A stretch of DNA of 36,474 nt from assembly GCA_944325705.1 (NCBI GenBank), contig CALVBB010000020.1, positions 1 to 36,474 on the forward strand, written 5' to 3'. Origin of the DNA: Candidatus Gastranaerophilales bacterium (GTDB lineage Bacteria > Cyanobacteriota > Vampirovibrionia > Gastranaerophilales > Gastranaerophilaceae). Below the pieces are notes generated by a model that saw nothing but the letters and a program-made list of their open reading frames with translations, had not been told where the DNA came from and did no database searches. Below are positions 3,695 through 34,876 of the stretch, one piece after another; position 1 is the stretch's first letter; every line of letters begins with the position of its first letter. The position numbers were made by a program, and so were the translations under genes.

Positions 3695-4963
3695 TTATTT
3701 ATTGAAATAAAATCCGTCAGCTTTAAATCTGTCTATTACTTCCTGAAGCTGTTCGTCACTGCATACAAATGATAGTCTGAAAAATCCCTCGCCATGTGCG
3801 CCGAACGCGTTGCCCGGAACAAGAACAACTCCTGATTTTTCTAATACATCCGCACAGAAATCAAATGCCGAGGAGTATTTTTGAGGTATAGGCAGCCAGA
3901 GGTAGAAGGTTGTATGCGGCACTTTAGCTTCATCTATCGGCCAGCCGAGTTCTTTAAATCCTTTTACAATAATTGCCTGTTTGTGTTTGTAGTTTTTGTT
4001 GCCTTCTTCAATGTATCTGTCGCCGGCTTCAGAGTTAAGTATGTAAGCACATGCCTTCTGGAGCGCTTTAAAGATACCGTTGTCGATGGTTGACTTGCCT
4101 TTCCCGAGCCGCTGTACAATTTCCGGATTCCCGCAAACCCAGCCTAAACGCCAGCCGGTTATAGCATAAGGTTTTGAAAGGCTGAAAAATTCAACAGCAA
4201 TGTCTTTTGCTCCATCTAATTCAAAGATGCTGAAAGGTTTTTCTTTTTCGTCAAAGTATAAGTCGCAGTATGCCGCATCAGAAATTAAAAGAATTTCGTG
4301 TTTTTTACAAAAATCAATTACTGATTTTGCGTATTCTTTTGTAGTGCTTACACCGAGCGGGTTGTTCGGGTAATTTATGATAAGCGCCTTAACATTATCC
4401 GGATTATAGCCGTCTTTGGTGAGTTTATCAAAGATTTCGTCAAGATTTGGCTTGAAATCGTTTTCGTAGGTCAAAGGCATCGGATACGCAATTCCGCCCG
4501 AGCACTGTACAAACTGCAGGTATGAAGCATACCCCGGATCAGGCACAAGAATAATATCTTTCTCAAGCCGGTTTTCTTTCGGAGTGATCAAAAACCTAAC
4601 GAGGTTTGCAATCCCTTCTTTAGAACCCATAAGCGAAAATATTTCAGTATCAGGGTTAAGTTCTACGCCGAAACGGTTCTTCATCCTTTCTGCTATTGCT
4701 TTTCTAAAGTAAGCTTCACCCTTCGGAGTTGAATAAAGATGAATTCCGTCCTCATCAAGAACCTCTTTAAGTTTATCAAGAAGTTCTTTTGGCGGAGCCG
4801 CTGTCGGAGCGCCCATAGACAAAGAAATCGGTGCTCTGTTTCTCTTTATTAAATCTGGTTTTAACTGTTCGGTTTTTTCTTTTAGCTTAAACATAATATA
4901 AGTGTCAAGCGACATTACGTCTTTGTTAAAAAGTTTTTCTGCTAAATTTTCTCCTTTTTTCAT
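3695..4963 (-). CDS. Class I PLP aminotransferase, probable LL-diaminopimelate aminotransferase
   Basis: This is a fold-type I, PLP-dependent aminotransferase of 422 residues, a normal length. Conserved elements are visible in order: YSTPKGEAYFRKAIAERM (77-94), SLMGSKEGIANL (110-121), the NYPNNPLG substrate/cofactor loop (197-204), SDAAY (228-232, Asp to the pyridine nitrogen), the Schiff-base lysine K264 in SLSKPYAITGWRLGW, and a substrate-carboxylate Arg near the C-terminus in FFRLSF. The SKEGIAxL and VPDPGYASY motifs match the DapL-type enzymes of Cyanobacteria and related groups, which make LL-diaminopimelate directly from tetrahydrodipicolinate for lysine and peptidoglycan. Substrate specificity cannot be proved from sequence alone, so aspartate/alanine aminotransferase activity remains possible. 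It is the last gene of mlaE-mlaF-aminotransferase, starting 24 nt after mlaF with an AGAGGAT ribosome binding site. Confidence 0.85.
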   Translation of the reverse strand: MKKGENLAEKLFNKDVMSLDTYIMFKLKEKTEQLKPDLIKRNRAPISLSMGAPTAAPPKELLDKLKEVLDEDGIHLYSTPKGEAYFRKAIAERMKNRFGVELNPDTEIFSLMGSKEGIANLVRFLITPKENRLEKDIILVPDPGYASYLQFVQCSGGIAYPMPLTYENDFKPNLDEIFDKLTKDGYNPDNVKALIINYPNNPLGVSTTKEYAKSVIDFCKKHEILLISDAAYCDLYFDEKEKPFSIFELDGAKDIAVEFFSLSKPYAITGWRLGWVCGNPEIVQRLGKGKSTIDNGIFKALQKACAYILNSEAGDRYIEEGNKNYKHKQAIIVKGFKELGWPIDEAKVPHTTFYLWLPIPQKYSSAFDFCADVLEKSGVVLVPGNAFGAHGEGFFRLSFVCSDEQLQEVIDRFKADGFYFNK

Positions 4964-34603: not shown

Positions 34604-34619
34604 TCTGTAAGTTACATAA

Positions 34620-34691
34620 GCGGATGTAATTCAGTGGTAGAATGCAACCTTCCCAAGGTTGACGTCGCGGGTTCGAGTCCCGTCGTCCGCT
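34620..34691 (+). tRNA. tRNA-Gly (anticodon CCC)
   Basis: The 72-nt gene has acceptor stem GCGGATG with CGTCCGC (one T-G pair), anticodon loop TTCCCAA between CAACC and GGTTG, and T-arm GCGGG-TTCGAGT-CCCGT. The CCA end is not encoded. It reads the rare GGG glycine codon. The last 18 bases plus downstream flank are duplicated 173 bp farther on, as at sites used by integrating elements. Confidence 0.96.
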
Positions 34692-34876
34692 TTTTAGTTT
34701 AAAAATGTAACAGAGAAGGGTGCTGGTATAGCGGAGCGGACGCCAGCCTCTCACCCGAGTTTGCCGCTTCAGTTAGTCGCGGCAAACAGGGTTCTGCCCA
34801 TGGGGTCCTGCCTCGTAAGGCTCGTGTTGCTCGCTAACGATGCAGGCGAGTCCCGTCGTCCGCTTTTAGTTTAAAA
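34674..34876 (+). repeat. Direct repeat of the tRNA-Gly(CCC) 3' end flanking a small insert
   Basis: The 3' part of the tRNA with its flank (CGAGTCCCGTCGTCCGCTTT and the following bases to 34704) recurs at 34847-34876 with one T fewer. About 142 bp lie between. The insert is G/C-rich compared with its surroundings and contains a perfect 9-bp hairpin (GTTTGCCGC 34759-34767 with GCGGCAAAC 34779-34787) and a weaker CTCGC/GCGAG hairpin. The second copy cannot form a complete tRNA. The structure looks like attL/attR left around a tiny element or its remnant. Confidence 0.7.

Follow-up and report, generated by a model that had tools for sequence, protein, structure and literature searches.

The question raised by the window (the whole stretch of 36,474 nucleotides analyzed here, from a Candidatus Gastranaerophilales bacterium) is why the 3' end of a tRNA gene occurs twice, on both sides of a short insert. 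tRNA genes are among the most common landing sites of mobile DNA. The intact gene, tRNA-Gly(CCC), lies on the plus strand at 34619-34692 (identified by ARAGORN; Rfam tRNA score 65.3 bits). The direct repeat, CGAGTCCCGTCGTCCGCTTTTTAGTTTAAA, which the preliminary description had traced over the T-arm half, the acceptor stem and the downstream flank of this gene, is present as described: positions 34674-34703 match 34847-34876 with 87% identity in an ungapped comparison, the second copy is one T short in a run of T residues, and the gapped BLAST match within the same genome reaches 97% (E = 6.1e-7). The insert between the copies (34705-34846, 142 bp) contains no gene and, as also noticed before, is rich in G+C on an A/T-rich background (0.50-0.60 in 100-base windows vs 0.19-0.36 over the 600 bases that precede the tRNA gene). 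The insert had further been called strongly structured on account of a perfect 9-bp hairpin. This hairpin, GTTTGCCGC/GCGGCAAAC, is real (34759-34767 / 34779-34787), but taken by itself the sequence folds with unremarkable energy (z-scores of -1.2 and -1.7), so that the structure is accepted here because of covariation within the family described below.

A search for the insert elsewhere, which had been proposed as a check, reveals a multi-copy family that is present at other tRNA genes of the same genome and of its relatives. In the source genome (G000), a 188-base BLAST query recovers itself, a second place, C35 (79%), with a similar unit behind tRNA-Lys(CTT), the tRNA tail, and three chance-level matches. 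Among related genomes, BLAST matches were found in 16 of 59, behind tRNA genes for Gly (CCC, GCC, TCC), Lys, Met, Asp, Ile and Leu. When the order Gastranaerophilales was scanned with a covariance model built from 14 copies (R1), 127 of 383 genomes, from 26 of 52 genera, gave a match; in a fuller scan of 18 genomes, 15 are positive, with 2 to 29 matches each, and no match was found in G003, G007 and G011. A second model of 63 rows (R2) matches 88 of 386 genomes of the phylum, 85 of which belong to Gastranaerophilales; the other three (G394, G399, G408) yield one weak match each. The window copy scores 114.9 bits with R1 and 100 bits with R2 (matched span 34736-34861). A pattern scan of named records identified 50 stretches, mostly titled Candidatus Gastranaerophilales; the pattern is also present in a Coriobacteriaceae record (L091), which gives no covariance-model match, and no unit was matched in the phage, plasmid and viral-contig collections. 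Four records titled "uncultured Brachyspira sp. RUG745" (L082, L090, L100, L105) contain units that equal those of G008, a member of the window's own genus, in score and length (e.g., the pair L100/L010); the title of these records looks wrong. Many units are located at contig ends (e.g., L008, L097, L116, L132, L134); arrays of units probably break short-read assemblies, so that true copy numbers are underestimated.

Most copies are attached to tRNA genes. Counting elements of at least 90 nt, 85 are distinct, and in 59 of them a tRNA gene is located on the same strand less than 400 nt upstream; 17 isoacceptors are represented. The available sequence shows no upstream tRNA for the remaining 26, many of which are truncated by the end of a contig or come further along in an array; two of these belong to an array at a tmRNA gene (L064, RF00023) and one is the L106 case discussed below, and true orphans exist but are few (e.g., L090 and L097). 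When 127 tRNA genes from loci chosen for their elements, and thus an enriched sample, were examined, the last 14 nt of the tRNA were found to be copied within 420 nt downstream in 46, compared to 0 of 127 in each of two controls. With Rfam 15, the tRNA alone reaches the gathering score in the window stretch and six further loci, and in four additional loci nothing but tRNA and tmRNA does.

The units share a common order of parts, which, outward from the tRNA, comprises the break in the T-loop, the left copy of the tRNA tail with its trailer, a spacer, an arm denoted R', a hairpin H1, the sequence GGTTC, the hairpins H2 and H3, and the right copy of tail and trailer. In the window, the break point TTC^GAG, i.e., the start of the repeat, falls at 34674/34675 and is followed by the left tail and trailer (34675-34704) and by a spacer (34705-34734) that differs among units and is where the units of the G004 array diverge. 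The R' arm (34735-34756) repeats the tRNA tail imperfectly and in antisense, as AGCGGACG...CTCTCACCC. It overlaps H1 (34753-34792), which reads ACCC-GA-GTTTGCCGC / GCGGCAAAC-A-GGGT in this copy and varies in sequence while pairing is kept (covariation in helices 2-4). Next comes GGGTTC (34789-34794), which copies the T-arm's 5' half and occupies the same position in relatives, and then the conserved module of about 53 nt with H2 and H3 (34795-34847), located where the T-loop would read TTC^GAG, and the right tail and trailer (34848-34876). The unit size is about 110-175 bp (153-174 bp within arrays), and many units contain terminator-like hairpins.

The break point and the R' arm are the features that tie a unit to its tRNA. 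In 48 of the 59 tRNA-linked elements, the repeat starts at the T-loop break TTC^GAG; the other 11 deviate, with L083 and L088 having no such repeat. When a narrower alignment is used, CGAG, GAG, GAA or an equivalent opens the repeat block in almost every tRNA-linked case. The length of the target duplication varies from about 18 to 50 bp. In antisense scoring, the R' arm averages 19.2 against the tail of its own tRNA, 12.6 against other tRNAs and 10.1 when shuffled, and the own tRNA scores best in 32 of 50 cases and not best in 18; for the window unit, the score is 22 against its own tRNA, the best of 14, with a mean of 12.8 against the others.

The module is not confined to standard units. 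In genus g6 (L121, L122, L124, L127, L128, L129, L130, L131), it interrupts several other repeat families, e.g., a repeat of L129, GTCATTCTGAGCGAAGCG / AAGAATCT, with a similar palindrome in L121; these repeats include a GTCATTCTGAG...AAGAATCT palindrome with the module inside. In L106 (reverse strand, about 1415-1570), the bare module of about 53 nt is located inside the T-loop of a near-complete tRNA-Val(TAC) gene. An interpretation of this case as a tRNA intron was discarded given that ARAGORN finds a second tRNA-Val(TAC) gene in the genome, which makes splicing unnecessary. The 5' ends of tRNA genes present a mirror image of the pattern: the first 12 nt are copied within 260 nt upstream in 37 of the 127 tRNA genes for which the upstream sequence was long enough, two of these cases being tandem Ser genes, compared to 1 and 0 in controls. 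These 5' units (seen at L156, L043, L048, L059, L061, L101, L125, L132, L195 and other loci) are 85-146 bp in size, are broken near the D-loop, are in some cases tandem, and often contain ACTCTGCCGA and an antisense arm. The arm scores 16.1 against its own tRNA vs 12.5 against others, and the own tRNA ranks first in 13 of 35 cases, so that the antisense match is weaker than in the 3' family. Neither of the window's two tRNA-Gly genes was found to have a 5' unit.

The fold of the 3' unit is conserved over sequence. Across 60 distinct rows, 89.1% of the cells are paired vs 32-42% for slid structures, and changes on both sides are seen in 23 of 30 pairs vs 15.9 in shuffles, with the qualification that this alignment was fitted to the covariance model and the counts lean towards its structure; in the first MAFFT alignment, covariation was already apparent in 13 of 26 pairs. 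The kind of pairing is informative as well. Among the 655 cells of H3, 637 are Watson-Crick, 3 are G.T, 4 are A.C and 11 are other, whereas the 972 cells of the acceptor and anticodon stems of 81 tRNA genes from the same loci include 898 Watson-Crick, 69 G.T, 2 A.C and 3 other pairs, i.e., G.T shares of 0.5% and 7.1%, respectively, of cells that are not independent. Over all helices together, G.T (59) and A.C (67) are about equal in number, in part due to misalignment of H1 and an unstable pair in H2; since such noise yields G.T and A.C alike, the argument rests mainly on H3. Folded as RNA, only 7 of 59 elements have a plus strand that is more stable than their minus strand. The shortage of G.T pairs in the best-aligned helix and the rarely superior stability of the tRNA strand point to selection on pairing of DNA rather than of RNA transcribed with the tRNA. 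Judging from these sequence patterns, the unit probably acts as folded DNA, not RNA.

Several lines of comparison bear on whether units move. In G017, the units behind tRNA-Val(GAC) and tRNA-Arg(CCT) are identical at 108 of 110 positions, with unrelated flanks; the match is bounded by ATGGACTC on the left and GAGTCCA on the right, and both tRNAs contain GGTTCGAGTCCA (L195; in other genomes, L052 and L057). Additional Val/Arg pairs with 87-92% identity have the right-hand end at the same point, and the Lys(CTT) and Val(TAC) units of L010 and L070 are 91% identical over 100 nt, from CTCTCAC to GCAAGCGAG. The presence in one genome of near-identical units of about 110 bp at two different tRNA genes, each with its local tail, implies that units move. 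A Val-to-Lys copy in G164 (L070/L083) was considered as proof of transposition and dismissed because it looks like part of a larger duplication that includes the end of an OmpH-like gene. The same L070 locus (4050-4680) encodes a small protein that we take, from reading its sequence by eye, to be GIY-YIG-like. Its gene lies between inverted TCAGATTTACTAATCCGAC-type repeats, is missing from L083, the related copy, and has the look of a small mobile element of its own.

Occupancy is variable. In a survey of Val(GAC) sites in one genus, where the tRNA tail could be recovered from 19 of 23 genomes, 9 sites are occupied and 10 have no unit in the available sequence (just 100 nt in L198). Seven of the occupied sites have an intact core, one (L190) is cut by a contig end after the start of R', and one (L204) is interrupted. 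The interruption in L204 is in the loop of H3 and consists of a repeat resembling the reverse complement of the 5'-family sequence. The genes that follow mostly differ between empty and occupied sites, and no clean before/after insertion pair was found among the 19. At the window's own site, the place between tRNA-Gly(CCC) and the DUF4037-like gene is taken in G004 by an array of the unit (3.4 copies of 173 bp), and tRNA-Gly(CCC) is followed by other sequence, with no element in the approximately 200 bases read downstream, in G003, G007 and G012; the loci of DUF4037-like homologs in the rest of the genus include a tRNA gene of any kind in 0 of 9 scanned. A larger island in this interval, whose presence in other strains had been named as telling, was not seen in relatives. 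The opposite expectation, that all relatives would carry the same conserved insert as befits a structured RNA, does not hold either, as occupancy varies and the base pairing is DNA-like.

These observations are best compatible with the unit being a gene-less mobile DNA cassette that targets the T-arm of tRNA and tmRNA genes and is moved in trans, a reading to which we assign a probability of about 0.5. Counting against it are that no recombinase could be linked to the units, that neither an excised circle nor a pair of the same site before and after insertion was seen, the weak folding of the single sequence, the 18 of 50 cases in which R' does not fit its own tRNA best, and the 26 of 85 elements with no tRNA upstream. 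The recurrence behind many tRNAs, the break at TTC^GAG in the T-loop, the tail on both sides, the arrays, the covarying fold, and the near-identical units at two different tRNAs of one genome are direct observations. The att-like character originally ascribed to the repeat fits recurrence at many tRNAs, the T-loop break and the arrays, and so does the "satellite-like minimal element" that was among the options listed for the insert. Because the segment from the T-loop to the trailer is present on both sides, the tRNA stays intact. The working form would be folded DNA, single-stranded or cruciform, in which the R' arm may pair with the strand of the tRNA tail while the H2-H3 module protrudes from the break point; pairing between R' and the T-arm might help to pick the target, insertion would duplicate the target from the T-loop to the trailer, and arrays could arise by repeated insertion or unequal recombination. 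The simplest view is that of a selfish minimal element. The more specific proposal, of a new class of folded single-stranded units that choose a tRNA via base pairing of a target-derived arm, insert at the T-loop, duplicate the tRNA end and thereby spare the host, and build arrays around tRNA genes, with a parallel family at the D-loop near the 5' end, is tentative and on balance doubtful. An open-access literature search covering titles and the beginnings of abstracts found no description of such units, although they might be described elsewhere.

Units that contain no gene have to rely on an enzyme supplied in trans, and the rival explanations differ in part in the enzyme they invoke. No recombinase linked to the units was found (PF00589 in 18 genomes; PF01797 in 383). 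All 18 genomes encode at least two PF00589 proteins, and a dedicated integrase was rejected as a candidate given that G000, G017, G244, G040 and G049 encode just two each; the G000 pair score as XerC/XerD relatives, slightly below the equivalog cut-offs. An integron-like system, in which a tyrosine recombinase would insert circles of gene-less DNA, each with a foldable site resembling attC, at the T-loop, with the tail as an attI-like target, and the cassettes would excise and re-insert to form arrays, is unlikely but would account for the fixed break point, the single orientation relative to the tRNA, the foldable arm with a variable hairpin end, the G.T-poor pairing in H3, and an array (L191) that mixes units with different terminators. 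Nevertheless, the motif RYYYAAC...GTTRRRY, which we take to be the attC core boxes, is present in 0 of 59 elements on either strand, and the two G000 recombinases score 164.7 and 151.5 bits against a cut-off of 265 for the integron integrase profile TIGR02249. Moreover, a Val circle inserted into the T-loop of tRNA-Arg would leave a Val tail on that tRNA, whereas occupied loci readable on both sides, Arg loci included, retain their own tail at both; we therefore favor insertion events that duplicate the target between T-loop and trailer (or a tail that was corrected afterwards). It is very unlikely that the unit is a palindromic repeat of the REP type mobilized by a Y1 (RAYT-type) transposase: the nesting of the module in other palindromic repeats of genus g6 and, in G107, a Y1_Tnp gene immediately preceded by a module-bearing repeat are suggestive of such a system, but over 383 genomes the association with PF01797 (Y1_Tnp) is not positive (both present in 32, the element only in 95, Y1 only in 92, neither in 164; odds ratio 0.60), G000 encodes no Y1_Tnp protein, and the unit is larger than a REP and has a target-derived arm.

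Two further alternatives dispense with mobility or with DNA as the working form. A structured RNA derived from the tRNA transcript, e.g., a processed sRNA or a decoy for tRNA processing, would explain the orientation along the tRNA strand, the strong covariation and the terminator-like hairpins, and yet is quite unlikely given the pairing and strand statistics above, the presence in several loci of a terminator-like hairpin that separates the tRNA from the unit, the occurrence of the module away from tRNAs, and the lack of an Rfam match; it was set aside as first choice because H3 lacks the abundance of G.T pairs characteristic of tRNA stems. That the insert is an immobile scar of an excised element or a decayed tandem duplication of the tRNA tail, as was also suggested early on, is highly improbable. 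Direct repeats of the tail and units truncated within H1 or the terminator hairpin at the right end of arrays in several loci would be expected under this explanation, but the insert is a conserved multi-copy unit, with no larger island seen at the locus, and decay of a duplication would not explain why 17 isoacceptors and tmRNA are followed by one conserved module with its fold, nor why different tRNAs have near-identical units.

If the preferred reading of a mobile cassette moved in trans is true, it would show how small a tRNA-targeting mobile element can be, add a new case of DNA selected for its fold rather than its sequence, explain assembly breaks at tRNA genes in Gastranaerophilales, and offer a test system for target choice via base pairing. 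The unit stands outside integron attC sites, tRNA islands, REP/RAYT systems, MITEs and Rfam families because it misses at least one defining feature of each. REPs are short palindromes of 20-40 bp tagged with GTAG or CGTC (PMC3733652). The unit resembles REPs and BIMEs in being small palindromic DNA with mismatched stems but differs in its size of 110-175 bp, its three hairpins and target-derived arm, and its attachment to tRNA genes. GTAG is found on the minus strand of many copies; the window copy has CGCTAACGA at that place instead. With MITEs and rickettsial palindromic elements, as generally known, it shares the absence of genes, the multiple copies, movement in trans and the capacity to enter RNA genes; unlike in those elements, its terminal arms vary with and match the local tRNA rather than forming a fixed transposon end, and the target duplication is long and not of fixed length. 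As in tRNA-integrating islands and their satellites, again as generally known, the tail is duplicated, the tRNA is restored and direct repeats flank the element, but there is neither an integrase nor any other gene between the repeats (142 bp in the window insert; 153-174 bp in array units), a single family serves 17 isoacceptors and tmRNA, and the repeat takes in the trailer. Finally, integron attC sites and cassettes, in their familiar form, are likewise short non-coding DNA that folds as one strand, with structure conserved over sequence (for the present unit, a foldable single strand is suggested by covariation and the G.T-poor H3), a variable hairpin end, and directional arrays at one anchor site; the unit is distinguished from them by the lack of attC boxes and cassette genes, the failure to find an integron integrase in G000, the anchoring at many tRNA genes, and the copy of the local tRNA tail that it carries. 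The apparent functional likeness to attC cassettes may serve as a lead.
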